From contig VYFT01000061.1 in NCBI GenBank assembly GCA_009842245.1, positions 1 through 33,458 of the forward strand: a stretch of 33,458 bases of DNA, read 5' to 3'. Of this stretch, positions 7,883 to 27,636 are shown piece after piece (positions within the stretch are counted from its first letter, which is position 1; each line of letters opens with the position of its first letter). Origin of the DNA: Gammaproteobacteria bacterium. GTDB lineage: Bacteria; Pseudomonadota; Gammaproteobacteria; Pseudomonadales; Azotimanducaceae. The position numbers and the translations under genes were made by a program. The notes under the pieces were generated by a model. The model did no database searches and was not told where the DNA came from. It saw nothing but the letters and a program-made list of their open reading frames with translations.

Positions 7883-10609
7883 ATGACACAGAATCTTGAA
7901 TCCAACATCTCTCAACAGTCGCAAGTTGAATCGTATGCGAACCAAAGACAGAGTTTGCGTTTTCCTCGATCCGACACCGTGTTCGGTGCGCTATCGCAAG
8001 GATGTTCAACAAGAAAGACTGGCATGACCTCGATGAGTGTCGTTCGTGCCGTATTTCTTCTGGTAGGAGTTCTTTTCGGTACCCACACAGCCTTAGCGCA
8101 GGCAGTGAACGAGTGTCCGGTTCCTCCAGACACCGCTCCGGTCGTAGATCCAGAAGTGACTGCGCAGCAAGTCGTTGCCGACGATACTAACTTGGGGGAA
8201 TTCACGCGTCTAGTACGAGATCGATTCAAGAGCTACTCCCAGACGGTTACCAGCGTTACTCAAATCGCTTACTTCGGCTGTGTCCTTAGAGAGGAAGAGG
8301 GACCGTGGCGCACGAGCACCGTCTATCCTATTCTGGTTACTCCTTTTGGGAGAATCGTTTTTCACACCGAAGACATGACTCTTTCAGGCCGGCTGATTGA
8401 CCCTGCCGTACTAGGGACAATCTATTCAGCATTAGGCGTTTCTCGTCAAGATATAGCAGACCTGAGATCTGCTGATGTTAATACTCGTAACCGAGCGCGC
8501 CGCTCAATACTAATGACACTAGCGGAAGAAAAGGATGCTGCGTTCGACGCTACCGCACCCATACCCGGTGTACGACCAGGTATCCCAGGTGCGAAAGGCC
8601 ATGTAGCAGTCTATGTTGGAAGAGCATTTCAGATTCCTTTGTTGGTGCTGGGTGGCTTTGACCTAGGTTCTAGGCACGTTGTTGAAGAAATGATTGATTA
8701 CGGCGATCCTTCTGTTACTGCAGCCGACGTGGTGGACCGAGAAACACTTAAGCAATTTGTCATTGAAGCTGGAAATTACTTCATCGAAGCGCAGAGAGAT
8801 GCAGGAGATGCAATCCTTGGTTCGGTCGCGAAAATTGCAATGCGAGATCGGAACGGCCCATGGCGACACGGTTCAGTGTACATTTATGTGCTGGACCTCA
8901 GAAGTAACATAATTTTCTTTCACGGTGCGGATGCTAATCGGTTTGAGTTTCGACCATTGATTCCGACCGTCAGAGATGCTGTTACCGGCGAGTACATCCT
9001 GGACAATGTCATCGACGCTGCGAAGAGCGGACCTGAAGGAGGATTTGTGCGCTATTACTTCGACGATCCGACGGATGACACAGATAGTGCCGACATTCCG
9101 AAAATAGGATATGCTCGCGAGTTTGCCGGGACCGTCGAAACATTTAGCGGGGCCGTAATCCCTTCGAACTATATCGTTGGATCGGGATTCTACTTGACAT
9201 CTCCCGCGGTCGTCGCGTTACGCCAGAACAAGGTCGTGGAGACCGTTCTCCCGCAGGTCATGCGCACCACTACAGCGAGTACCGTGGACGCTATCGCGGA
9301 GCGAATCCAACAGGCCATGTCAGGCTCCGGCGCATCTGCATCAACGGTTATAAATTTAGGTAGTCCCACTACGTTGTCTGCCGCTTTACGTAACCGCAGC
9401 GAGGGTTCGTTTTTATCCAACTGGCTTGCAGACGGTTCGCACTTCTTGTTACCGTTGAATGCAACGCACGCTGGGGATAAGCTACTCAGTCAATTCACGT
9501 TTTGGGGTAACTTCGACTATCGAAAACTCACTGATGATAACATGGAGGTTATGGGTTATGACGGTACCGTGACCAGTGCTAACTTTGGGATCGATCGCAA
9601 AATAGGTGAAAGTCTGGTGGGCGGCGTTTCTTTGACGTTGTCGCGAGGAACGACAGATTACACAGATCCAGAGCTAGCAAAGGGTGAGTTGTCGACTTCG
9701 TTGACAAGCGTCAATCCATTTGTAGGATGGCGAATCACTGACAATGCTCGGGTGTGGGCAGCCGCCGGGTTTGGCGGTGGTCAGGTTGACTTTAAAGAGT
9801 CCACCAACGAACAGTCTACTGACATATCCCAATCGATGTTCGCGGCCGGTTTGAATTTCTCGTTAATGTCCAGCGATCAACTCATCGGTGGTGGTACGAC
9901 AAGTCTCAAGTTGAACACTGACACAGCTTTCACGAGTGCTGACATCGACGCTGGAGATAGTATCGAAGAGACATCATTGGAGGCTTCCCGATACCGGGTG
10001 TCGCTGGAAGGTTTATACACTCGGAAACTTGCATCGGAAGCAGTGCTCACGCCTTCGATTGAAGCTGGTTGGAGGCACGATGGTGGAGACGGAACAACAG
10101 GCTCTGGTCTCGAGATTGGCGCTGGTATCGGATATACGGTTGGTCGGCTGATGGTAAAACTAGACTCTCAGACCTTGGTCACGCATTCTGATGCCGATGA
10201 CTACACCGATTGGAGTTTCAGTAGTATGGTATCGTACGAACCGAGCAGCAACGGCCAAGGATTGTCTATGTCCCTTGGGTCCGCGTGGGGGCTAATCAAT
10301 AGAGACATTGGTGAGGATACAGTGGGGTGGTTTAAAGATGCGCGAGCTCGAACTCAGCGCGAAGCCCGATTGACACCGGCGCCATGGATTCACGCTACGG
10401 TACGGTACGACTTCAATCGACCGTATGGGCTTGGTTTATGGACATCATACCGTGGTACAGACAGTGATGATCAATTCCGTTTGTTGCAGGTAGGGTTGCA
10501 GTTTCGATCCGGTCAGGGACTCAACGCAGGACTGAAGATTGGGCGTCAAGAAAGGTTCAATCTAGCCCCGGATCACAGCGTTGAACTTCGTGGTACGATA
10601 CGTTGGTAG
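7883..10609 (+). CDS. Autotransporter with two Cache-like passenger domains
   Basis: 908 aa. The start at 7883 has a GAGG Shine-Dalgarno 7 nt upstream and gives a roughly 47-residue pre-sequence before the hydrophobic core at 54-72 (ending TALAQA). Such an extended signal region is common in autotransporters; ATG 8024 is the alternative start. Two segments share the pattern GPWR-(x)-VY...G/N-I-(V/F)-FH (about 140-161 and 325-347), each followed by a helix/strand region, matching the periplasmic Cache (sCache_2-like) sensory fold: domain 1 about 100-205, domain 2 about 285-438. After a helical linker (445-530), residues about 535-908 form an amphipathic beta-barrel ending in RGTIRW with terminal Trp, typical of type Va autotransporters. 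I infer a surface-displayed or periplasm-plugging ligand sensor. Cache assignment is by motif pattern, moderately sure; the barrel is confident. Confidence 0.8.
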   Translation: MTQNLESNISQQSQVESYANQRQSLRFPRSDTVFGALSQGCSTRKTGMTSMSVVRAVFLLVGVLFGTHTALAQAVNECPVPPDTAPVVDPEVTAQQVVADDTNLGEFTRLVRDRFKSYSQTVTSVTQIAYFGCVLREEEGPWRTSTVYPILVTPFGRIVFHTEDMTLSGRLIDPAVLGTIYSALGVSRQDIADLRSADVNTRNRARRSILMTLAEEKDAAFDATAPIPGVRPGIPGAKGHVAVYVGRAFQIPLLVLGGFDLGSRHVVEEMIDYGDPSVTAADVVDRETLKQFVIEAGNYFIEAQRDAGDAILGSVAKIAMRDRNGPWRHGSVYIYVLDLRSNIIFFHGADANRFEFRPLIPTVRDAVTGEYILDNVIDAAKSGPEGGFVRYYFDDPTDDTDSADIPKIGYAREFAGTVETFSGAVIPSNYIVGSGFYLTSPAVVALRQNKVVETVLPQVMRTTTASTVDAIAERIQQAMSGSGASASTVINLGSPTTLSAALRNRSEGSFLSNWLADGSHFLLPLNATHAGDKLLSQFTFWGNFDYRKLTDDNMEVMGYDGTVTSANFGIDRKIGESLVGGVSLTLSRGTTDYTDPELAKGELSTSLTSVNPFVGWRITDNARVWAAAGFGGGQVDFKESTNEQSTDISQSMFAAGLNFSLMSSDQLIGGGTTSLKLNTDTAFTSADIDAGDSIEETSLEASRYRVSLEGLYTRKLASEAVLTPSIEAGWRHDGGDGTTGSGLEIGAGIGYTVGRLMVKLDSQTLVTHSDADDYTDWSFSSMVSYEPSSNGQGLSMSLGSAWGLINRDIGEDTVGWFKDARARTQREARLTPAPWIHATVRYDFNRPYGLGLWTSYRGTDSDDQFRLLQVGLQFRSGQGLNAGLKIGRQERFNLAPDHSVELRGTIRW

Positions 10610-10767: not shown

Positions 10768-12147
10768 ATGAAAACGAAGACATTGTTCGCGTGTCGCGAA
10801 TGCGGTGCTTCATATCCTAAATGGCAAGGACAGTGCGCTACTTGCGGGGAGTGGAACTGTTTAGAAGAAGTCAAGGTTTCAAAAAAACAGAAGACTTCCA
10901 GTAGTGCAACGGGCGTCGGCTATGCCGGAAGCTCTACTGAGGTCACTCGATTATCCGAGGTCAAATTAGAGTCAAGCCAACGAATTCCTACCAGCATTCA
11001 GGAATTTGATCGCGTATTAGGCGGCGGCCTAGTACCCGGCTCAGTCGTTCTGATAGGAGGTGAACCTGGTGCCGGAAAATCGACCATTCTCATACAGATG
11101 GCAAGTGAATTAGCGCGTGAGTTAGGATGCGTCTATGTTAGCGGTGAGGAATCCATTCAACAAATCGCTAGTCGCGCGATTCGTTTGGGGATTTCGGATC
11201 GGGACGTCCAACTAGCCACTTTAACAGACGTAGCTCAAGTGATTGAATTAGTTCATAGGACTCAACCTACCGTGGTGGTCATTGACTCGATTCAAGTTAT
11301 GCACTCCGATGAAATCGAGAGTGTTCCTGGGAGCGTCAGCCAAGTACGGGAGTGTGCATCTCAACTCACACAGTTAGCGAAGCAGACTGGCACGATCTTT
11401 GTACTTGTCGGACACGTGACCAAAGAAGGCAATCTTGCTGGACCCAAAGTATTGGAGCACATGATTGACTGCTTTGTGATGTTAGAAGCTCCTATTGGTA
11501 GTCGTTTTCGCACGCTACGTGGTATTAAAAACCGGTTTGGCGCAGTGAATGAGTTGGGTGTGTTCGCGATGACTGACCGAGGACTACGTGAAGTTGCTAA
11601 CCCTTCCGCGATATTCTTAGAACGCACGACCGATCCGACTCCTGGTAGTGTCGTAAGCGTCACGTGGGAGGGTACACGTCCGCTCTTGGTTGAAATTCAA
11701 GCTTTAGTCGACGACGTACAGGGCGGATATCCTCGCCGTGTGTCGGTAGGTTTAGATACTCAACGATTAGCGATGCATTTAGCCATCATGCACCGGCATT
11801 GTGGAATCTCACTAGCGGATCAGGATGTGTTTGCTAACGTCACTGGAGGAATCAAAGTTGCGGAAACCGCCGTGGACTTAGCTACGCTCGTGGCAGTTTA
11901 CTCCAGTTTTAGAAATCGTGCGATACCTCACGATTTGGTTGTGTTTGGTGAGCTCGGACTAACGGGTGAAATACGTCCAGTACCGAATGGACAAGAGCGT
12001 TTACGCGAAGTACAAAAGCACGGTTTTACTCGAGCCATCGTCCCATTAGCGAACAAAGCGAAAAAACCTTTCGCTGGCGTTGAAGTTTCGTATGTGCCGA
12101 CACTGAGTAGCGCACTCGATGTTTTGAGTGAAATTCTGAGCCGTTGA
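10768..12147 (+). CDS. radA: DNA repair protein RadA (Sms)
   Basis: RecA-family ATPase that promotes branch migration of recombination intermediates. 459 aa (E. coli 460). The N-terminal zinc finger has Cys9, Cys12, Cys23 and Cys26. Walker A is GGEPGAGKST (97-106). The RadA-specific KNRFG motif is at 254-258. The C-terminal Lon-protease-like domain (about 285-455) contains VVFGELGLTGEIRPV but acts as a scaffold in this family. ATG 10768 has no strong Shine-Dalgarno. It is convergent with the TonB-repeat genes, with only 52 nt between stop codons. Confidence 0.97.
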   Translation: MKTKTLFACRECGASYPKWQGQCATCGEWNCLEEVKVSKKQKTSSSATGVGYAGSSTEVTRLSEVKLESSQRIPTSIQEFDRVLGGGLVPGSVVLIGGEPGAGKSTILIQMASELARELGCVYVSGEESIQQIASRAIRLGISDRDVQLATLTDVAQVIELVHRTQPTVVVIDSIQVMHSDEIESVPGSVSQVRECASQLTQLAKQTGTIFVLVGHVTKEGNLAGPKVLEHMIDCFVMLEAPIGSRFRTLRGIKNRFGAVNELGVFAMTDRGLREVANPSAIFLERTTDPTPGSVVSVTWEGTRPLLVEIQALVDDVQGGYPRRVSVGLDTQRLAMHLAIMHRHCGISLADQDVFANVTGGIKVAETAVDLATLVAVYSSFRNRAIPHDLVVFGELGLTGEIRPVPNGQERLREVQKHGFTRAIVPLANKAKKPFAGVEVSYVPTLSSALDVLSEILSR

Positions 12148-12199: not shown

Positions 12200-13786
12200 T
12201 TAGTCTTCGTGGAAGCGTAGATTGATTTGGTGGCGCACTCCTTCAGTCCTTGCAGGAGTATCATCGATTACTAAGGGTTCGTACCGGTAGTAGCCTACTT
12301 CTTCAACAATTCGTTGGGTGACATCTTGTGAAAGAACCGTCCCTTCAACCTCAACAATATTAGGATGTTCGACGGCTCCTTCTTCGCTTACGTCAAACTC
12401 GACGATGACCATACCGTCTGCTTGTTTCCCCTGAATCGACAACGTATGGGTCGGCTTTCTTATGCGTACTACCGTCCCTTGACTCATTAAATCGTCGATC
12501 ATCTGTTTTCGTTGTGCGGGTGAAACGTCTCGAAGTTGTTCGAAAAATTCTGTTGGATCAATACGAGGCATAATGATGGGTAGCCCTTCATCGACGTCCG
12601 GGGAGTTGTCTCTCAGCTCGCGTCCGGGGTCGTTGTCCTCTTCACCCTCTACACCCTCAATCTCATAAAAGATTCTGTTGATAACACCCTCCACGCGTAC
12701 AGGTTGGCCGTTTACGTACTTGGGGGTGTATTTAAACTGTCTCGCCGCGCTTACAGCTGATTTATCAAAGACATCTGGAGGATCTGATTCTATGACAGAG
12801 ACATTGTCTACCGAACCGGTCGTGTCGACATCGAACTCAACGAGAACGTAGCCCTCGATGTTTTCTTTCAGTGCTTTCTCTGGATATTCTGGCTCAACTT
12901 TGCTTAGCGGTTGCCGTTCTTGGTTGAAGTTGAATTCAAACTTATGCAACACCCCATTCAGAGGATTGTTAGGATCAAATCGAAATTCAGATACTGCAGC
13001 GAGTGCAGATATCTCGAATATGCCAGCGTCAGAATAAATTGCTTCTGGGTTTTCGACTTCGCCGTTTTCATTGATATCAAATTGAACGATTACGTGCCCG
13101 TGGAGCAGTAATTCCCTTGCCTCGGTTGGATATTCAACTCCTACGGCTGTACGAGGTTTACTATCTAGAGAAAACGTGAACTTGTGGAGTATTTTGTCGT
13201 CTGGATTGAACCGTTTTGGTTCAAATTTCATCTTGCTTGCAGCTTCGAGTGCTGCGGCTTCAAAGAACCCGGACGGTTCAGCATCAACGACTACCTGATC
13301 CTGGACCGTACCTGTCTCCGTTACTCCAAACTGAACAATGACAAATCCTTCCGCGCCCTGTTCCAGTGCAATTTGAGGATACTCAATGTTTACGGGAACT
13401 GTTGGGCTTGAATTGAGAGTAAAGGAAAAGCGTTTCTTGACTCCGGACATATACTGGGAAGGTCCACCCAGCTGTTCATAACGATGACCTCTAATTGCTT
13501 GTACCGCATAGAGTTCAAATTTACCAGGGAGGGACGAGCTGACGACGCAGGCGTTTTCGACATTACCTTCTTCGGTTACATCGAACATCAAAGTGACCGT
13601 TCCCTCGGGATTCTCTTCCCATTCATCTTTAGGATACTCTGGAAGCGGGGCATCGATTTCTTTGAGGAGATTTCCCTCGGACGGGACAGTCGTTGCCGCG
13701 TGCGCCAACGCACCACAAAACAAAGCTGTGGTCAGAAAAAATATAAAGACGTGAAGCTGGTTTTGCTTCGACTTATCAGTTCGCAT
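12200..13786 (-). CDS. Exported protein with five TonB-C-terminal-like repeats (copy A)
   Basis: 528 aa. An N-terminal hydrophobic stretch (12-30) ends AHA-A, a plausible signal peptase I site. Five units follow at about 46-124, 132-208, 214-286, 296-376 and 446-526. Each has the TonB_C pattern: YP-x(n)-(E/A)G-x-V-x-V-x-F-x-V-x-(E/N)-G-x-V, then a V-x-S/D segment, F-x-x-(A/S)A-(L/V)-x-A and a F/Y-x-(F/Y)-x-P end. Unit 5 lacks the YP start. An acidic linker (377-445) separates units 4 and 5. Mature residue Cys80 is the only cysteine. Real TonB has one such domain, a cytoplasmic-membrane anchor for ExbBD and a Pro-rich spacer; the spacer and the S/H anchor motif are absent here. The start has a strong GGAGGAG Shine-Dalgarno. 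Its role is unknown; it is paralogous to the next gene. Confidence 0.85.
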   Translation of the reverse strand: MRTDKSKQNQLHVFIFFLTTALFCGALAHAATTVPSEGNLLKEIDAPLPEYPKDEWEENPEGTVTLMFDVTEEGNVENACVVSSSLPGKFELYAVQAIRGHRYEQLGGPSQYMSGVKKRFSFTLNSSPTVPVNIEYPQIALEQGAEGFVIVQFGVTETGTVQDQVVVDAEPSGFFEAAALEAASKMKFEPKRFNPDDKILHKFTFSLDSKPRTAVGVEYPTEARELLLHGHVIVQFDINENGEVENPEAIYSDAGIFEISALAAVSEFRFDPNNPLNGVLHKFEFNFNQERQPLSKVEPEYPEKALKENIEGYVLVEFDVDTTGSVDNVSVIESDPPDVFDKSAVSAARQFKYTPKYVNGQPVRVEGVINRIFYEIEGVEGEEDNDPGRELRDNSPDVDEGLPIIMPRIDPTEFFEQLRDVSPAQRKQMIDDLMSQGTVVRIRKPTHTLSIQGKQADGMVIVEFDVSEEGAVEHPNIVEVEGTVLSQDVTQRIVEEVGYYRYEPLVIDDTPARTEGVRHQINLRFHED

Positions 13787-13815
13787 ATCTCCTCCAAGTG
13801 AGTGCTGCTAAAAGC

Positions 13816-13821
13816 ATTATA
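13816..13821 (-). promoter_or_regulatory. Consensus -10 element of copy A
   Basis: TATAAT on the minus strand, 29 nt before the ATG of the 12200-13786 gene. The -35 is weak (AGTTTA at 17 nt). Together with the gene's own strong Shine-Dalgarno it suggests separate transcription from copy B. Confidence 0.4.
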
Positions 13822-14042
13822 AATCGTTTTCTTCGCTCTAAACTCGACTGTACATCCCTTATTGTTCTTCTGAGTGAAGGACAACGCGGTACCGAACACG
13901 CCGTAGGGTGATCGATCTATTGGCAACCCTCATCGGCCTGTACAACAGTAGATGACGGTCGTAAGAGATTGACCTTAATTTTTGTCGTGAGAGTCCTACA
14001 GTTCTTGCGAAAATTCAAGCAGCCAATAGTGGCGGCCCCTTC

Positions 14043-15614
14043 TTATTCGTAACCGAAGTATAGCTCAATTTTGTGTCGAACACCGGTTACGCGCATCGGA
14101 CGATTATTCTCGATGTATGGCGCGTACCAAAAATAACTTACTTCGTCAAGAATCCGTTCGGTAATTTCCTTCGATAGGCTAGTACCGATCATTTCGATTA
14201 TTTTCGGTCTCTCAACGTAGCCCCTTACATTCACGTCGAATTGAACTATTACACTCCCATCCGCGTAGTTCCCATCGCCCAGATGCAACGCGTATATAGG
14301 TTCTAGTTTTATATCACGCAATGACTCGGGTCGCCGGTCCTCAATTGCTGGTTGCTGACTTTGTTCCTCTGACCGTCCTCTTCGAGTCGATGGTCGCTGA
14401 CCTTGACTCCCCGATCTTTGTCGTTGATTCGCAGGTCGAGCTAGAGGACCACTCTGTCGAACCGCTTCTTGCTGACTTGGGAGTCCGAGTGCGAAGCGAA
14501 GCCGATTGCGCACATTCTCAACTCGAACCGGTTTTCCATCGACGTACTTTGGTAAATATTTGAACTGTGCTGCCGCCTCTAATGCAGATTCATTGAAGAT
14601 GTCGGGAGGTTCTGCTTCAAGCACAGACAGATTGTCGACAGTACCGTATTCATTGACATCAAAATTCACTATTACCTCCCCTTCAACGCGTTGAAACACT
14701 GCTTCTCTGGGGTACTTCGGTATTGCTTTGAAAATAGCTCGGTGGTTCCGATTCAGGATGAATTCCACTTTGTGTAGCACATTGTGTGCAGGTTCATTTT
14801 GATTGAAAGTAAACTCTCTGACAGCATCAATAGCAGCTTGTTCGAACAACCTATCACTAGAGTAGAGCGCGTAGGCACCGTCAACACTACCATCGGAAAT
14901 GATGCTAAATTCCACAACTACATGACCTTCCAGTCCTTGTTCTTTGGCGGCATCAGGAAATTCAGGTATAACGAGATTGTTGGGCTTGCTATCCAACGAA
15001 AATGAAAACTTATGCTGCACGGTTTCATTCCTTGAGAAGCGCTGCGTTGCAAACCTGAACTGTCTTGCAGCGTCTAGCGCCGCTTTCTCAAAAATCTCTA
15101 CCGGTACAGCTCCGGTTGTCTGTAGACGCCGTACTCTTCCGTTTCGTTTTATGCCGAAAGAAACTACTACATAGCCCTCATAACCGAATTCCAAAGCGTC
15201 GCGCGGATATTCAGGTGGGACATAAATTGTCGGATTGGAATCCAAGTTGAAGGGAACCGTCGCGGTGACTCCTTGTATGAGCTCGCGGGGTCTTGTCGTG
15301 TTCTTGTACCGATAGTCTTTAACGGCTTGGAGCGCGTAAAGATCGAAGAGACCTGGGTACGAAGAGTCGACTATGCAGGGGTCTTGTACGTGTCCACGTT
15401 TTGACACGTCGAACACTACCGAGACATATCCCTCGTGCCCCTTTTGATAAACACCCTTGGGGTAGGTTGCTTGTGGAGTTGAAATTTCCTCGAGACGTAT
15501 ATCGTCGGTCGCGGAAATCACAAGCGCATGTGCAAGAACAGCACCAATCACTGCAACAGAAACTGTCACAAGCAAGGTGCGTAGTCGGATGTGCTGTCGC
15601 GAAACAGCTCCCAT
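14043..15614 (-). CDS. Exported protein with five TonB-C-terminal-like repeats (copy B)
   Basis: 523 aa, paralogous to the 12200-13786 product and collinear with it from residue 46 to about 376 without visible register change. A hydrophobic segment (13-34) may be a signal peptide or an uncleaved anchor; no clear AxA site precedes the mature part, although ISA-T is possible. Repeat units lie at about 46-124, 132-208, 214-286, 296-376 and 438-521, with the same YP...EG-x-V-x-V-x-F-x-(V/I) core. The linker between units 4 and 5 (377-432) is Gln/Arg-rich and basic, unlike the acidic linker of copy A. Cys80 is again the only cysteine. ATG is preceded by GGAGGG. No ExbBD-binding or Pro-rich spacer is seen. 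It is probably periplasmic and membrane-associated; its substrate or partner is unknown. Confidence 0.85.
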   Translation of the reverse strand: MGAVSRQHIRLRTLLVTVSVAVIGAVLAHALVISATDDIRLEEISTPQATYPKGVYQKGHEGYVSVVFDVSKRGHVQDPCIVDSSYPGLFDLYALQAVKDYRYKNTTRPRELIQGVTATVPFNLDSNPTIYVPPEYPRDALEFGYEGYVVVSFGIKRNGRVRRLQTTGAVPVEIFEKAALDAARQFRFATQRFSRNETVQHKFSFSLDSKPNNLVIPEFPDAAKEQGLEGHVVVEFSIISDGSVDGAYALYSSDRLFEQAAIDAVREFTFNQNEPAHNVLHKVEFILNRNHRAIFKAIPKYPREAVFQRVEGEVIVNFDVNEYGTVDNLSVLEAEPPDIFNESALEAAAQFKYLPKYVDGKPVRVENVRNRLRFALGLPSQQEAVRQSGPLARPANQRQRSGSQGQRPSTRRGRSEEQSQQPAIEDRRPESLRDIKLEPIYALHLGDGNYADGSVIVQFDVNVRGYVERPKIIEMIGTSLSKEITERILDEVSYFWYAPYIENNRPMRVTGVRHKIELYFGYE

Positions 15615-15790: not shown

Positions 15791-17044
15791 ATGTTCAATC
15801 AACAAAAACTCTGCGACCTAGATCCTGAGGTATGGGAATCCATAGTTGCCGAAGATCGTCGTCAGGAAGAGCACATAGAACTCATCGCTTCAGAGAACTA
15901 TGTCTCCCCAGCCGTGCTCGAAGCGCAAGGTTGTGGCATGACCAATAAATACGCCGAAGGTTACCCCGGTAAGAGGTACTACGGAGGTTGCGACTATGTA
16001 GATCAAGTAGAGGTCCTTGCTATTGAACGGGCAAAACAGTTGTTTGGTGCTGACTACGTGAATGTGCAACCCCATTCCGGTAGTCAAGCTAATGCATCAG
16101 CCTACTTAGCATTGATGGAACCGCGCGATGTAGTACTCGGCATGAGCCTATCCGAGGGCGGTCACTTGACGCATGGCTCACCGGTTAACTTTTCCGGTCG
16201 AATTTATCAGGCGGTTCAATACGGTGTACGGTCAAATGATGGACTCGTGGATTACGACAGTGTCTTCGCTCTCGCGGAAGAACACCAGCCTAAACTCGTT
16301 GTAGCAGGATTTTCGGCCTATAGTCGCAAGTTGGACTGGGGTAAATTTCGGGAAATCGCAGATTCGGTCGGGGCATATCTGTTGGTGGATATGGCTCACG
16401 TTGCGGGCTTGGTAGCCGCTGGCGTCTATCCGAATCCAATCCCACATGCTGACGTTGTAACTACGACTACGCACAAAACTTTAGCAGGTCCCCGCGGTGG
16501 ATTGATCTTAGCACGAGCAAATCCTGAAGTGGAAAAGAAGCTTAATTCAGCTTTGTTTCCTGGAACGCAAGGTGGACCACTAATGCACATCATCGCGGCA
16601 AAGGCTGTGTGTTTCAAGGAAGCTGCGACCCCAGAATTTCGAGACTATCAAGTTCGGGTAGTGGACAACGCTCGCACAATGGCTAATGGATTTGTGGACC
16701 GCGGCTACAAGGTAGTGTCTGGTGGAACCGATAACCACTTGTTCCTATTGGATCTGATCGACAAAGATATCACGGGCAAGGCAGCTGACGCGGCACTGAA
16801 TCGAGCGAACATCACAGTGAATAAGAACACGGTACCTGGCGATCCACGTTCCCCGTTCGTTACCAGTGGCTTACGCATAGGCTCTGCGGCCGCGACTCGT
16901 CGTGGCTTTGGTACCGAGGAATGTGGTACGTTAGCTCAATGGATGTGCGACATTCTTGACGATATTTCCAACGACAACATGGTTGCTTCCGTTCGAATAA
17001 AAGTGCGAGAACTGTGTAGAAAACATCCGGTTTACTCGCCGTGA
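15791..17044 (+). CDS. glyA: Serine hydroxymethyltransferase
   Basis: PLP enzyme that interconverts serine and glycine while charging tetrahydrofolate with a one-carbon unit. 417 aa, same length as E. coli GlyA. The PLP lysine is Lys229 in [14 protein letters not shown], at the same residue number as in E. coli. Other family blocks are [33 protein letters not shown] and [11 protein letters not shown] near the N-terminus, and [16 protein letters not shown] near the C-terminus. ATG 15791 has no strong Shine-Dalgarno; MFNQQKLC fits the family start. No glycine-riboswitch-like structure was recognised upstream. In many relatives nrdR and ribD follow; here ribD follows directly after 53 nt. Confidence 0.97.
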
Positions 17045-21590: not shown

Positions 21591-21948
21591 GGGGGCGATC
21601 TGGATTCGACGACGGATACAAAGTCTCAGGTGCATGTCGAGCGTGTAGGATAGCTCGTAAATAGATCCTTCAATTCAAACATAGTTGCCAACGACGACAA
21701 CTACGCTCTAGCGGCTTAAAGCCACTAGTTCTGTCTATTTGCTTGCTCATGGGCGTTTAGACGGGATCATGTCGCATGAGCTCGTGTTTGTTGCCGGTCC
21801 GAGCAACGGATACTAAATTTTCGGACTCGCTTACCGTGGCCTTGTCCGGTTGGGCTAACGGCGAGTTAAATTTGAGAACTGGACTAAACATGTAGATCCG
21901 AGGATCGAGTTCTGGCGGACGCGGGTTCAACTCCCGCCGCCTCCACCA
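21591..21948 (+). ncRNA. ssrA: Transfer-messenger RNA (tmRNA)
   Basis: 358 nt. The 5' end is GGGGGCGATCTGGATTCGACG, the near-universal tmRNA start. The 3' end has a tRNA-like T-arm GCGGG-TTCAACT-CCCGC, then CGCCTCC, discriminator A and encoded CCA. The 7-bp acceptor stem GGGGGCG/CGCCTCC forms with one G-U pair. The tag reading frame lies at 21687-21719. tmRNA rescues stalled ribosomes with SmpB (not in the window) and marks the truncated protein for proteolysis. It is single-piece, not permuted. The last 22 nt overlap the antisense gene ending at 21927. Confidence 0.97.
21687..21719 (+). other. ssrA: tmRNA proteolysis-tag reading frame (ANDDNYALAA)
   Basis: After the TAGTT upstream element, codons GCC AAC GAC GAC AAC TAC GCT CTA GCG GCT TAA encode ANDDNYALAA; the added tag includes a preceding Ala from the charged tmRNA. 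It differs from the E. coli tag ANDENYALAA only at position 4 (Asp for Glu). The C-terminal LAA recognised by ClpXP is kept. Confidence 0.95.
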
Positions 21949-24900
21949 CCTTCAAAGTTAATGTTCCGGGTTGTACTAACTGGGACCCAACGGATAGCAT
22001 CAGCATACAGCCATGGCGTGTCGTTCGTAGCACTAATTACACGTACGTTTACATCTCCTTTCAACAGTTCAAATTCGTCAACCTCATTCCATCCGTAGAT
22101 CGAGTCTTCAAAGCTCAAATCACGTCGCTCGGTTGCTTCCGCATGCTCGATTTCCAAGTGGTATTCACCTCGCCTACTACTTCTACGAAACCAGTCAGTA
22201 TTAATGAAGTACTCGAGTTTCCACCGCGTGGTATCGGGTATCTCCGTTGAAAATGCTACCGGGTGTATCTCCGGGGCAAATCTTGTAACTGTGGCGGTCC
22301 GCCGAAAGTGTCCATAAGAATTGTCGTCTTGTATCCGCCCCCAAACCCCGCGGCTCGTTCGGTAAGCATAGTTTGCGCGCGCCGGCAAACCATTGTCATT
22401 GTCCGCTTGCAATCGCGGAATGCGCAACCAACCTAACGGCCCGATTGATGAAGCACTGTTAAATGCTGGCGGCTGATCCACTGCAAAACCAGGATCTAAG
22501 TCGTCTACTACAATCCAGGGGTTAGACGGCCTCCAATCTACCACTTCAAATGAAGGACGAGGCTCTGGTGATTCATCGTTTTCCTGCCAAAGTGAAGACT
22601 CATCGAGGCGAGTTCCGAATTCGTTCCGATTTAGCGACAGATTCGGGAATAGGTGAATGTAATCTATTTCGTGTGTTGTAACCACGTTGATTCGCACTGA
22701 CGACTTACCTTCTACAGTCACAGTCGGAGTACGTGGCCAATTTCTTCTCGTTTCCGGAGGATATGCTGCCCAAAACACGCCAGTTGTGTCGCTAGGGTTA
22801 TATACATAGAAAGAAGACTCGTATCTTGCGTTCCCGTCCTCGTCATCGGTTAGTTGCCGGCGCGTAATGTCGGAGACTAGATAGCCTGGTAAATTACTAC
22901 CGGTAAGCCATTCGTCGAGATAGGGATGTACGTTCAGTTCAGCTGCTTCGGCTTGAGCCACCAATTCCTCCGGAGTGAAGGACGTGCCTTGATTGGCATT
23001 CCGTAGGCTACTGAGCCACGCTAAGATGGCATCGTTGTCGTTAGCCTGCACAAAAACTCGTGCAATCATGCGATTTTTCGCTAGCATAAATTCAAGATCA
23101 CTTTGGTGCGATTCTGTGGTGGGGAGATCGAACAACGATTTGGTCTCCATAGCTTCCCAGACCGAGTGGCGATTCAAGTAACGTTGAGACAAACTGCGGA
23201 CCCAATCGGTTAATTCGCCTCCTCCACCCTCATCAATCGACCATTCGACAGCGGGTAGAAATACTTGTGTGAAGTCGGCTACTTGGTACGTCGCGTATGG
23301 AGAAAACCACAGATCCGGAGCTTCCGAGATCTGAGAGATTACATTCTGAACAAGATCGTTTAGTACTGTCGCTTTTGTACCACTAATGGTGGTCGAATGT
23401 GTCCAGAATGTTTTGGAAAAGCTCGCCCAAAGATTGTCTGTTCCCACCGCATCTCCGAAGTAATCCGCGAGTGCCCAATATTTACGGTGTTCCACCCATT
23501 CCTCATCTTCCACCCAACGCTCGATCCGCTTAATCCGCGTATCGAAATGGGCGGTAGGGAATCCTCGTTCTTTCATAAGAATCAGACCGGGGAGTACTTG
23601 AACACTTTCGGTTTTGAACCCGCCGCTTAGTGTTCTCAGTCGATTGGGAACCTCTACAAACGATAACTCGTTGAAAGGGTATCCCAGTCCGGCTTCTTCG
23701 AAGGGTACGAAAATCTCCTCGATCTCTTCTCGCACTTTTTCGTCGTCAAAATTGAATTTGCCGAAATTCTTTTGATGGCTTGCGTGGAGATAAAGATTGA
23801 ATTGAATATCTGCAATGGTCAAGGAATGCTTGACAAAATTTGTTCCGAACACTGCAATCTCTGATATAGGAGTGTCCGGTCGCAACTCGAACGTTGCTTC
23901 TGCGTTCTCCAATGTCTTAATATCGGTGCCGACCAGTAACCAGTTCGGATTAGTCAAAGAAAATTCGATGTCGGTTTGGAAAAAGTCAATTTCTCCAACA
24001 GAGGAGCGTGCCAGACTCTGGGAGTACGGCACGGGATACCAATACATGCCTGGCATTAGCGCAACATATTTTGTTGAGAAGATGGAACCGTCTTTTCCGA
24101 ACAGTTGCGGAGCTCGGCGAGGTACGGTGCGGTCGTTGAAGTAATTGAAAGGACTATCCAAGTACGCAAAGCGAGGATCTGGGATTCCTTCGGCTTGAAT
24201 GACCATTTCTTGCGTCTCTCCTCGTCGTAATGGCGTGCCGGTAGGCACGATCAAGAGTCCATCGGAGAATTGAAAATCCACGACGTCACCGTTCAATTCA
24301 ATCAGGTTGATAGTCAACCCTGAATTTAGAGTGAATGTTAGTTGCGGTATATCCGTTTCCTGGGTCAATCGAAAATCATACGTGAGATCAAGCATCAAGC
24401 GATGCCCCGGATCTATTGTCACGGAACCTTGAATCTCATCAATGTCAAGTTCGACACTTTGGTCGTAGGCAGCATGGATGTTGGACCAATCTTCTGGTTC
24501 GAAATATTGATTGATCAACTGGTGAGACAACATACCAAAGCCGTACACACCTAGCGTTGCCATGGCCAGTCCCAATGGCAAGTTCACAAAGCCGACTCGG
24601 GCATCACGTCGGTCCAGAACGAATGCGGCAAAAACGATCAGACCTAGTGCTCCGACTACCGTGAACGCGCGCATCCCAATCACCTCTGAGGACGCGAAGT
24701 TCGGAACTAATTCGGAGATGTAAGCAGTGAAGTTGGTAGATGGTGTTACCACGTCAAGCCAAGAGAACGGAACTATCAAGCTACCAATATAAAACACCAC
24801 TAGAAGACTCGAAGCGATGATCACGGCAACAAAGCCTGATCGAAGAATACTCGTGAGAGCAAGGGCAACGCAACTCCACAGAAATAGTGATGGGAAAACG

Positions 24901-25391
24901 TCAACAATGAGCAGATTGAAAACCGACACAGGCTCTAAGAATCCCCCCCATGCGGAACCAAGGAAATAGCTGAGAGCCCCAAGCCCTTCGATGATCGCGA
25001 TGTTGCAAAGAACAACTAGATAGAGTAAAAACGTTACGCCCAAGACACTACCCAAGAGATACTCGATATTGGTTAGTTGCCGGCTCTCTAAGACTGTCTG
25101 AACACGATTTCTATTGTGGTATTGACGGACATCGAAGACCAACAGAATTGCGGCGAACTGAAACGCAAGAAACACTAGCGCGTCGACACTACCTAGAAGA
25201 TACTTAGGTTGAGCTAAACTGAAGGAAGGGGAATAGGACGCGTTTAATGTCTGCCACACGCAAGACTGAATGTAGCCAACCAACACAATTACGGTGAGCA
25301 GTGCACTAGTTACCCAGAATCGCACCAAGGATCTGCAGATTCTGATTTGCGCGCGCGCGACGGTTAGTGTTCGAGCTAACGACTTAAACAC
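21927..25391 (-). CDS. ABC-2-type permease fused to a degenerate M1-peptidase-like periplasmic domain
   Basis: 1154 aa. Residues 1-290 contain about seven transmembrane segments (24-48, 67-88, 110-138, 157-184, 186-208, 242-260, 268-290), resembling ABC-2 permease subunits. Residues about 310-900 look like an M1 aminopeptidase-type ectodomain (beta-rich start, PGMYWYP block at 447-453). The zinc site is lost: the segment aligned with HExxHxWFGD reads YWALADYFGD (638-647), and the downstream NE position is also changed. A C-terminal part (about 1035-1140) has the GWNEVDEF...YADAIRWVP pattern of golvesin-type beta domains. The tail ends in EGGGGGGS, encoded antisense to the ssrA 3' end. The TonB-dependent receptor gene lies 78 nt upstream. 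No ABC ATPase is adjacent. Its substrate is unknown. Confidence 0.8.
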   Translation of the reverse strand: MFKSLARTLTVARAQIRICRSLVRFWVTSALLTVIVLVGYIQSCVWQTLNASYSPSFSLAQPKYLLGSVDALVFLAFQFAAILLVFDVRQYHNRNRVQTVLESRQLTNIEYLLGSVLGVTFLLYLVVLCNIAIIEGLGALSYFLGSAWGGFLEPVSVFNLLIVDVFPSLFLWSCVALALTSILRSGFVAVIIASSLLVVFYIGSLIVPFSWLDVVTPSTNFTAYISELVPNFASSEVIGMRAFTVVGALGLIVFAAFVLDRRDARVGFVNLPLGLAMATLGVYGFGMLSHQLINQYFEPEDWSNIHAAYDQSVELDIDEIQGSVTIDPGHRLMLDLTYDFRLTQETDIPQLTFTLNSGLTINLIELNGDVVDFQFSDGLLIVPTGTPLRRGETQEMVIQAEGIPDPRFAYLDSPFNYFNDRTVPRRAPQLFGKDGSIFSTKYVALMPGMYWYPVPYSQSLARSSVGEIDFFQTDIEFSLTNPNWLLVGTDIKTLENAEATFELRPDTPISEIAVFGTNFVKHSLTIADIQFNLYLHASHQKNFGKFNFDDEKVREEIEEIFVPFEEAGLGYPFNELSFVEVPNRLRTLSGGFKTESVQVLPGLILMKERGFPTAHFDTRIKRIERWVEDEEWVEHRKYWALADYFGDAVGTDNLWASFSKTFWTHSTTISGTKATVLNDLVQNVISQISEAPDLWFSPYATYQVADFTQVFLPAVEWSIDEGGGGELTDWVRSLSQRYLNRHSVWEAMETKSLFDLPTTESHQSDLEFMLAKNRMIARVFVQANDNDAILAWLSSLRNANQGTSFTPEELVAQAEAAELNVHPYLDEWLTGSNLPGYLVSDITRRQLTDDEDGNARYESSFYVYNPSDTTGVFWAAYPPETRRNWPRTPTVTVEGKSSVRINVVTTHEIDYIHLFPNLSLNRNEFGTRLDESSLWQENDESPEPRPSFEVVDWRPSNPWIVVDDLDPGFAVDQPPAFNSASSIGPLGWLRIPRLQADNDNGLPARANYAYRTSRGVWGRIQDDNSYGHFRRTATVTRFAPEIHPVAFSTEIPDTTRWKLEYFINTDWFRRSSRRGEYHLEIEHAEATERRDLSFEDSIYGWNEVDEFELLKGDVNVRVISATNDTPWLYADAIRWVPVSTTRNINFEGGGGGGS

Positions 25392-25469: not shown

Positions 25470-27527
25470 CTAAAAACGCCGTTTAATTCCTACGAAAAAT
25501 TGCCGTAAATCCGCCGGAAAATAACGGTAGTTTCCAAATGCGAAATCCGCTCGATCCGCATAGTAGTTGTCGAAGACATTGAGTATTCTACCAAAGAGAA
25601 ACCATTGCGTCTGTAGTCGAAATTCTGTGCGAAAATTCACCACATTGTGTCCACCGTAACGCGCGCTATTCGCTGCATCAAGGTAGTGAGAGCCGATGCG
25701 ATTGACTTCTAACTCGACCTTGCCAATTGAACCGAAAGTCATTAGCCATCTTGCATTTGCTAGTACTCGTGGTGCAGTGTCCACCTGATTTCCAGCCATG
25801 ATCATTTCACCGCGCGTAAGACTCCGTGTGAAGTCATACTCGTGGTTAGCAATGGAATTCGCGACGGAAATTTCATGATTCTCGTTGACTCGCCAATGAA
25901 ATTCGATCTCGACACCTTGAGAGTTTGTTGCACCGTCGCTTACGTTCATTCCAGCAGCATCTCGAAAAATTAGACTGGAGCTAGAATTAAAGTATGCCGC
26001 GATAGAGAGGTCAACTCTATGTCCTGAAGTTCGCCAACCGAACTCAAGCGAGCGAGTCTCCTCACTCTCAAGATCGGCGACCATTTGTCCGCTTTGTAGT
26101 CGATACAGTTCAGAAATTTGCGGTGGTCGATAACCAATCGACGAGACTATCCAAAAATTTGACCGGCTGGTGATCCGCGTCTTGTAACCGACGCGAGCAG
26201 CGATGTTCGTGAACGTGTCCGTTCGATCACTAGGACGGGTGTACAGACAACCGCCAAAAGCACAAATAGAACCGTCATCTCGGGTATTACCATCTAGGTG
26301 CCGATTGTCGTACTGATAGTGAGTTCTCTCGACACGGACACTCTGTTCAATTTCGTGTCGATCGCGCCACGTCCCACTTGTGCTCTGAAAAATTGCCAGT
26401 GTCGGTCCAGTTACGACAAAGTCATAGTGTGTGCCGATTGGACGGGTCGCTCTCAAGAAGTTCGATCCCATTGTGGGTTCCCATTGGCGTTGTACCAACG
26501 AGGCATTCATCCATTCAAGGTGCGCGCCTATATTTAATTTGAGCGTGTAAACAGCGAACATTCGAAAAAAAATTGCCCCCGCACTAAATTGTTGGTTGTC
26601 CTCGTGTGGCTGTCCAGGAAGAAAGTGCTGAAGGAAATTCATTCTCGAGACGCGCACGAAAGGGTACATGTAAAGATCTTCACCGTTGCTAAATTGACTG
26701 TAAATTCGAAAGGACACCGCGTCGCGAAAAGCCTCGGGATTTGGGTTCGTACTTCGCAATCTGCTGTCTTGGAACGATCTATACCCGATGACATATCCAC
26801 CAGTTTCTTGCTTCAGAGACGTCATCGATACCGCGTGATTTGCTTCCCAGGTTCCAATGTTTGAAGTCCAGCCCACATTGAGTTTTTGTTGTTCAAACCC
26901 AGTCTCGTCTCGAAATCCATTTGTAGCCGTGGCATGAAATTTGGCTTGCACGCGTTGGTGTTGCCAAGCAACGCGAATTTGTCGATAGTCGTTGACGCCG
27001 GTTTCTAGGCTAACCGCACGATCTGTATCACCACTAACGAAGGGGCGTACGTTGATTACTCCGCGCAAGGCGTTCCCACCATAGATTGCACTTGCGGGGC
27101 CACGCAGAATCGTTACACGGTCAGCTTGTTCGATGTTTAGTTCGAACAAGCCATTGACATTGCACAGTCCAACGGGACGAATCGGAATATTGTCTTCTAG
27201 TAGAAGGTAGGATCCACATGCACCGGATCCAGCGAGCACGGCGGACCGAAGTCCCGTCAGATGCTCTTGACCCGAGTTCTTAACAATCCAGATGCCCGGA
27301 GTGCGTGCAAACACATCGTGAGGATGACGGGGTCGTACAAGATCGAGCGCGTGACTATCTATGGTTGTCAAGCTACCAACTTCAGATCGTGTTGGTACAT
27401 CGCGGGGATCGCCTTCAACAACAATTTCCTCAACTTTTAACTGATCGTCGTCTGGGGCGTCGTTTCCAAAGACGACTGACACAATCAATACAGCAGAAAA
27501 GGAAGCAAGCGATGCTCGCGCACACAT
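25470..27527 (-). CDS. TonB-dependent outer-membrane receptor
   Basis: About 685 aa from ATG 27527, which starts directly at a signal peptide (MCARASLASFSAVLIVSVV...). The frame is open to a TTG at 27569, which would add 14 residues; no Shine-Dalgarno decides. The mature N-terminus contains the TonB-box-like EEIVVEG. The plug domain (about 45-165) has TPGIWIVKNSG and VTILRGPASAIYGGNALRGVINV, the family's most conserved block. The rest is a 22-strand-type barrel ending in GIKRRF with terminal Phe. There is a Cys pair in the plug (ACGSYLLLEDNIPIRPVGLC region) and another in an extracellular loop (ICAFGGCLY). The ligand is not predictable; siderophore, B12, sugar or metal are all possible. It probably forms an operon with the permease fusion downstream. 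Confidence 0.92.
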   Translation of the reverse strand: MCARASLASFSAVLIVSVVFGNDAPDDDQLKVEEIVVEGDPRDVPTRSEVGSLTTIDSHALDLVRPRHPHDVFARTPGIWIVKNSGQEHLTGLRSAVLAGSGACGSYLLLEDNIPIRPVGLCNVNGLFELNIEQADRVTILRGPASAIYGGNALRGVINVRPFVSGDTDRAVSLETGVNDYRQIRVAWQHQRVQAKFHATATNGFRDETGFEQQKLNVGWTSNIGTWEANHAVSMTSLKQETGGYVIGYRSFQDSRLRSTNPNPEAFRDAVSFRIYSQFSNGEDLYMYPFVRVSRMNFLQHFLPGQPHEDNQQFSAGAIFFRMFAVYTLKLNIGAHLEWMNASLVQRQWEPTMGSNFLRATRPIGTHYDFVVTGPTLAIFQSTSGTWRDRHEIEQSVRVERTHYQYDNRHLDGNTRDDGSICAFGGCLYTRPSDRTDTFTNIAARVGYKTRITSRSNFWIVSSIGYRPPQISELYRLQSGQMVADLESEETRSLEFGWRTSGHRVDLSIAAYFNSSSSLIFRDAAGMNVSDGATNSQGVEIEFHWRVNENHEISVANSIANHEYDFTRSLTRGEMIMAGNQVDTAPRVLANARWLMTFGSIGKVELEVNRIGSHYLDAANSARYGGHNVVNFRTEFRLQTQWFLFGRILNVFDNYYADRADFAFGNYRYFPADLRQFFVGIKRRF

Positions 27528-27636
27528 TCGATACGCTATAGTCGAAGTCGACACAGTTACCCGGATCAATACGAAAAAGGACGCGGACGCGTGGTCCTAC
27601 AACTTCAGGACAAACTAGATTCGATCGTGTTTCGAA

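Follow-up and report, generated by a model that had tools for sequence, protein, structure and literature searches.

Chu et al. (2007) reportedly described TonB proteins in which two C-terminal domains follow one another, and the TonB of the TonB2-type system (TonB2-ExbB2-ExbD2-TtpC with TtpB and TtpD) carries a single C-terminal domain, an anchor signature and a Pro-rich periplasmic linker. According to the available part of PMC12204202, the TonB C-terminal domain binds its target by beta-strand addition, and TonB and TolA attach to their motors through an SHLS motif. In Vibrio vulnificus, all six components of the TonB2 system were reported to be essential for siderophore uptake (available part of PMC6957404). 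In this study, which was based on a window of 33,458 nucleotides (the whole analysed stretch of contig VYFT01000061.1, assembly GCA_009842245.1, from an Azotimanducaceae bacterium), we analysed two tandem genes, A and B, that encode exported proteins with five TonB_C units each. We tentatively propose that both are periplasmic, motor-uncoupled, putative multivalent binders of the partners of TonB C-terminal domains. A and B resemble the TonB2-type TonB in the C-terminal domain but have five domains instead of one, neither the anchor signature nor the Pro-rich linker, and lie outside the operon. With the two-domain proteins they share more than one TonB_C per chain; in the three two-unit loci read here, however, the two units are approximately 20-27 residues apart, whereas A and B are a duplicated pair of five-unit proteins in which units 1-4 are nearly linkerless. 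Two domains in series are already known and two-unit proteins are sparse elsewhere, and the five-unit pair is a variant on that arrangement.

Domain architecture of A and B

Both proteins matched the TonB_C family (PF03544, cut-off 24.6 bits), A with 220.8 bits (E 2e-66) and B with 207 bits (E 4e-62). At a Pfam E limit of 10, five TonB_C stretches were found in each, one of them C-terminal as in TonB energy transducers, and not exactly two in series as in the two-domain TonB proteins. Four units of A and four of B were above the cut-off among the matches listed in a PF03544 search of the window's genome, and unit 5 was not there. The sub-cut-off Pfam matches were DUF1573 in A and B and TonB_2 in B. 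The unit borders (Table 1) were taken from a hidden Markov model (HMM) that was built on these A/B units and was used for positions only. The AlphaFold2 models from a 12-sequence alignment, which had a mean predicted local distance difference test (pLDDT) of 77 for A and 75 for B and a predicted template modelling score (pTM) of 0.51 each, contained five successive TonB_C-like domains, an approximately 30-residue N-terminal helix and, ahead of unit 5, a linker modelled at low confidence. Because the pTM is low, the arrangement of the beads in these models is not reliable. Both ORFs lie exactly at the positions given by an earlier, sequence-only reading; Pfam and AlphaFold2 confirmed the five units that it had described for each gene, and the N-terminal hydrophobic segment is present as well. 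That reading had A and B collinear over about 330 residues, which proved too short, as the homology spans the whole of the approximately 520 residues.

In a Foldseek comparison of the model of A with the PDB, TonB C-terminal domains came first (1u07, E 1e-6; 2gsk, 6i97, 8rd6 and 7zc8), and by sequence the solved structure that was closest to unit 4 of A was Vibrio anguillarum TonB2 (2k9k, E 3e-17). The first TolA match to the model appeared only at E 0.38 versus 1e-6 for TonB. The identity with TolA was rejected because of this poor match of the domain III fold and because the neighbours are radA and glyA instead of tol-pal.

Full-length homologues of A and B were found in the window's genome and in five congeners (hereafter, the six carriers), where two or three such genes occupy one shared site between radA and glyA. 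Twelve of these sequences, seven A-type and five B-type, were compared using the E. coli TonB numbering. In all 12, units 1-4 retain Y163 (Tyr or Phe), P164, F180, G186, F202 and an aromatic residue at 215, which makes a TonB_C binding fold plausible in these units. In unit 5, on the other hand, P164 and F202 are no longer present in any of the 12 sequences, nor is Y163 in the seven A-type ones, yet the number of invariant columns is highest there (26 of 88, compared with 19-23 in the other units). Judged from this alignment, unit 5 is the odd one out, conserved but different. The position of Trp213 is occupied by His or Met in units 1 and 2 of A. Hardly any linker separates the successive units 1-4, the last strand of one and the next YP motif being within approximately 10-15 residues. 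Unit 5 is preceded by approximately 60 variable residues, which are 8% identical between A and B without an invariant column and are Arg/Gln/Pro-rich in B and acidic in A. The earlier statement that there is no Pro-rich spacer thus holds ahead of unit 1 but fails for the linker before unit 5 of B.

A FastTree phylogeny of 115 TonB_C units grouped the units by position across A and B before gene, with a support of 0.995 for unit 1, 0.988 for unit 2, 0.872 for unit 4 and 0.993 for unit 5; unit 3 grouped less firmly (0.67; 0.90 when a divergent copy from carrier G007 is included). The five-unit plan therefore predates the A/B split, in agreement with the claim that the architecture was fixed before the duplication. 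Unit 4 had the top scores against the genome's own TonB, with identities of 55% (A) and 52% (B) over 82-85 residues; the other units reached 31-53% over 54-78 residues. The ratio of nonsynonymous to synonymous substitution rates (dN/dS; Nei-Gojobori method, NG86) was 0.11-0.28 for ten B pairs and 0.19-0.32 for 21 A pairs, compared with 0.02-0.05 for radA and glyA, 0.08-0.14 for ribD and 0.08-0.24 for tonB. Many of the dS values exceeded 1 and were saturated; the A and B pairs with a dS of 0.36-0.54 gave ratios of 0.21-0.32. By this measure, A and B are under purifying selection and are constrained less than their neighbours.

The N-terminal hydrophobic segment was present in all 12 A/B proteins (Kyte-Doolittle 19-residue maximum 1.8-2.5). 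It is separated from unit 1 by approximately 10-20 residues with no extended Pro-rich periplasmic linker, unlike in TonB transducers, in which an extended, often Pro-rich linker spans the periplasm before the single C-terminal domain. The TonB2-type anchor signature, a pattern derived from some of the TonBs that it was then applied to, was found in none of the 12 A/B proteins versus all 14 single-domain TonBs. The SHLS motif was missing from the 12 A/B proteins and also from the 14 single-domain TonBs tested, so its absence from A and B is not diagnostic. Of the earlier claim that an ExbB-interacting anchor motif is lacking, the part that concerns the TonB2-type signature stands, while the absence of SHLS is true but does not help to decide. 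AxA-like signal-peptidase sites that fit the (-3,-1) rule were predicted in six of seven A, three of five B and seven of 14 TonB sequences; the rule does not separate A/B from TonBs.

Circumstantial connection with the TonB2-type operon

The TonB2-type operon of the window's genome is located on contig C33 and encodes a DUF3450 (TtpB-like) protein, a long ExbB-like (TtpC-like) protein, ExbB, ExbD, a 202-aa TonB and two proteins of the tetratricopeptide repeat (TPR) type, the second of which is TtpD-like and truncated by the contig end. The Ttp names are borrowed, as analogies, from Vibrio vulnificus. Four of the six carriers (the window's genome, G007, G008 and G011) showed an ExbB-ExbD-TonB operon, the remaining two loci being covered less far, and additional tonB-like copies were found in G008 and G011. 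In three congeners, G006, G002 and G014, the TonB2 operon, in which DUF3450, TtpC, ExbB and ExbD are all present, also holds TonB_C arrays (Table 1). These follow exbD and the first tonB and precede the TtpD-like genes, and the array of G014 is flanked by two tonB copies. Like A and B, they are tandem TonB_C arrays from the same genus, and the three of the four that were tested have no intact TonB2-type anchor signature; unlike A and B, they consist of two, three or four units with linkers of approximately 11-26 residues. With a TonB from their own genome the units share 54-71% identity, and most of them fall with the TonBs of these genomes and not with the A/B units in the FastTree phylogeny, some supports being low, which suggests that the operon-borne arrays were amplified separately. 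The first units of both G006 arrays were placed elsewhere in the tree with low support. The G002 array looks recent because two of its units are nearly identical.

Moreover, carrier G004 encodes, beside TtpD, a TtpD-like TPR protein that is fused to a C-terminal TonB_C (L063:7764-8810, minus strand) and is 65% identical to TtpD over 261 residues, after which the TonB_C follows. Its counterparts in the carriers G008 (L057 6523-7658) and G013 (L061 3931-5069) are in two open reading frames (ORFs) each. On this genomic evidence, the Ton system of this genus has seen repeated copying and grafting of TonB_C. The operon-borne arrays and the TtpD-TonB_C fusion in congeners are the main reason for tying A and B to the Ton system, and the tie is circumstantial because A and B sit elsewhere on the chromosome.

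Proposed function and alternatives

We propose that A and B are derived from a TonB that belonged to a TonB2-type system (TtpB/DUF3450, TtpC, ExbB, ExbD, TonB, TtpD) and that the proteins would be in the periplasm, either soluble or tethered by an uncleaved signal anchor. Units 1-4 would form a four-bead rod, with unit 5 as a specialised bead on a flexible linker. Such proteins could hold several partners of TonB C-terminal domains at once, most likely the Ton-box strands of receptors or the TPR protein TtpD, and may in this way collect receptors or partners for the TonB that is driven by the motor, or act as a buffer between it and them. The multivalent binding to TonB boxes or peptidoglycan that the earlier reading suggested is a reasonable hypothesis with partial support.

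Several observations weigh against this proposal. A and B are located between radA and glyA and not in the TonB2 operon; a position beside exbB/exbD is in itself a weak criterion for a TonB transducer, and some real tonB genes stand alone. Nine of the 12 non-carrier congeners exceed the carriers in receptor count, all of the genomes being of 2.9-3.8 Mb. The TonB_C fold is compatible with other partners too, and not every unit need bind Ton boxes, because the YP motif is lost in unit 5 and the Trp213 position is His or Met in units 1 and 2 of A. Additionally, the (-3,-1) rule does not tell a cleavable signal peptide from an anchor in A/B, and the score of 14 out of 14 for the anchor signature is partly circular since the pattern was derived from some of those TonBs.

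It is unlikely, in our assessment, that A and B are still coupled to the motor, with an uncleaved N-terminal helix docking to ExbB/ExbD and five C-terminal domains that reach or pull several receptors. The hydrophobic segment in 12 of 12 proteins, the failure of the (-3,-1) rule to separate A/B from real TonBs and the ExbB-ExbD-TonB operon in four of six carriers are all consistent with such coupling, but the anchor signature is missing throughout, the stretch between the membrane and the first bead is short and not Pro-rich, and the A/B genes are distant from exbBD.

A purely structural role as a periplasmic spacer or tether, e.g., from peptidoglycan to the outer membrane and out of Ton-dependent uptake, also seems improbable. 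The near-linkerless chain of units 1-4 and the location of the genes outside the ton operon would suit a tether, and the TonB C-terminal domain binds peptidoglycan. However, a Pfam scan revealed no OmpA-like or LysM domain in A/B, no lipobox was found in the first 55 residues of any of the 12 proteins, TonB-typical residues are retained in units 1-4, and congeners hold arrays within the TonB2 operon. That the periplasmic ligand of the units is an imported substrate or a host protein instead of a receptor, as ferredoxin is for the C-terminal domain of FusB, is quite improbable: TonB_C can bind a substrate protein (FusB, available part of PMC13253070; title of PDB 9hi3) and A and B evolve faster than their neighbour genes, but the FusB RRxxYP motif given in the available part of PMC13253070, the one mark of substrate binding that was searched for, was found in none of the 12 A/B proteins.

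Distribution and genomic context

The survey covered 58 genomes, among them that of the window and 17 further members of its genus. G011 has two A-type genes and no B-type, and G013 carries, between its A-type and B-type genes, a third copy of A type that is fragmented into three ORFs (L052:9885-11469, minus strand). Among the 12 non-carrier congeners, a glyA match was found in 11, and in 10 of these 11 radA adjoins glyA and leaves no space for an A/B-type gene, the exception being G010, where the two genes are not adjacent. The glyA proteins are 92-97% identical among the carriers, while in the other congeners the identity to the window's glyA protein does not exceed 80%, and by this comparison the six carriers look like one clade. 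Of 200 family members searched, nine gave a match of any kind at E 1e-30, and only the six carriers gave full-length ones. A 567-aa divergent poly-TonB_C protein is encoded at a different locus in G007 (L059:8030-9733, minus strand), beside another single-unit ORF; in the FastTree phylogeny its units are placed with A/B units 1, 3 and 5.

Outside the genus, a two-unit model that was built from this genus aligned over both units in three of 368 other genomes in a class sample (G368, G479 and G587; limit E 1e-22), one genome in an order sample of 390 (G933; limit 1e-34) and none of 397 others in a phylum sample (limit 1e-28). The samples overlap, and with these strict E limits long-linker arrays may be missed. 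The three of these four outside loci that were read hold ORFs of 285-296 residues with two units approximately 20-27 residues apart. No ORF with at least four TonB_C units was detected outside the genus by this genus-built model at the strict limits. No paper on five-domain or poly-TonB_C proteins turned up in open-literature searches, as judged from the listings.

The window also encodes a TonB-dependent receptor with plug and barrel, in which an EEIVVEG Ton-box-like stretch is present at residues 47-53 (TTG start). Plug-domain matches numbered 17 in the window's genome and 19, 20, 20, 19 and 18 in the other carriers, compared with 9-35 in the 12 other congeners. An association of A/B with receptor number was therefore rejected, as carriers are not enriched. 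The suggestion that A and B might buffer or bridge this receptor found no support: the box is there, but the receptor is 10 kb away and carriers are not receptor-enriched.

The ATG of A and of B is each preceded by a Shine-Dalgarno-like sequence. A foreign origin was not indicated by base composition, the guanine plus cytosine (GC) content of the genes being 0.469 and 0.478 versus 0.483 for the window. No viral relatives were found in a scan of viral contigs with B alone as the query, which detects only close relatives. In a scan that was not used as evidence, promoter-like sites were below the shuffle level (2 versus a mean of 4.0) and there were 7 terminator-like sites versus 3.8 (standard deviation 2.0). 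Upstream of radA, the window encodes a 908-aa protein, whose orthologues are split into two or three ORFs in G011, G013 and G008 (L049, L052, L053), which is either a real split or a sequencing error. A 1154-aa protein without a Pfam or NCBIfam match is conserved in congeners, and the 3' end of its gene overlaps the 3' end of the transfer-messenger RNA (tmRNA) gene by 22 bases.

Table 1. Features of the A/B locus, other features of the window and operon-borne TonB_C arrays of congeners.
Feature	Position	Strand	Description
Gene A	12200..13786	-	528-aa exported protein; N-terminal hydrophobic segment and five TonB_C units
A unit 1	13406..13666	-	residues 41-127
A unit 2	13157..13411	-	residues 126-210
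A unit 3	12917..13162	-	residues 209-290
A unit 4	12650..12916	-	residues 291-379; best-scoring A unit versus the genome's own TonB, 47/85 identical
A unit 5	12203..12475	-	residues 438-528; YP motif lost
Gene B	14043..15614	-	523-aa exported protein; N-terminal hydrophobic segment and five TonB_C units
B unit 1	15234..15494	-	residues 41-127
B unit 2	14985..15239	-	residues 126-210
B unit 3	14745..14990	-	residues 209-290
B unit 4	14481..14744	-	residues 291-378; 43/82 identical to the C-terminal domain of the genome's own TonB
B unit 5	14046..14318	-	residues 433-523; Pro of YP motif lost
radA	10768..12147	+	one conserved edge of the A/B insertion site
glyA (serine hydroxymethyltransferase, SHMT)	15791..17044	+	second conserved edge of the A/B insertion site
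908-aa protein	7883-10609	+	dCache_2 match at residues 327-415 (just under cut-off), autotransporter beta-barrel match at 540-739
tmRNA gene	21591-21948	+
1154-aa protein	21927-25391	-
TonB-dependent receptor	25470-27569	-
Operon-borne arrays	L054 8411-10722, L055 3938-4960, L056 7887-9710		G006: 2 and 4 units; G002: 3 units; G014: 4 units

Possible implications for Ton-dependent uptake

A broader and rather doubtful possibility is that A and B represent a passive class of Ton-system proteins, in which an unpowered TonB_C rod would extend across much of the periplasm and dock several receptors or TtpD partners, such arrays having been invented at least two times (the radA-glyA pair and those of G002, G006 and G014). 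If this were true, the gathering of receptors and their energising would have become separate tasks in the host genus. In the current picture, TonB is a single C-terminal domain borne by a single motor arm; natural proteins with five such domains, apparently anchorless and subject to purifying selection, could uncouple the binding of receptors from the transfer of energy. The several amplifications of TonB_C in this one genus offer a natural series, from one to five units, with and without linkers and with and without fusion to a TPR protein, for studying the effect of multivalency in Ton-dependent uptake.

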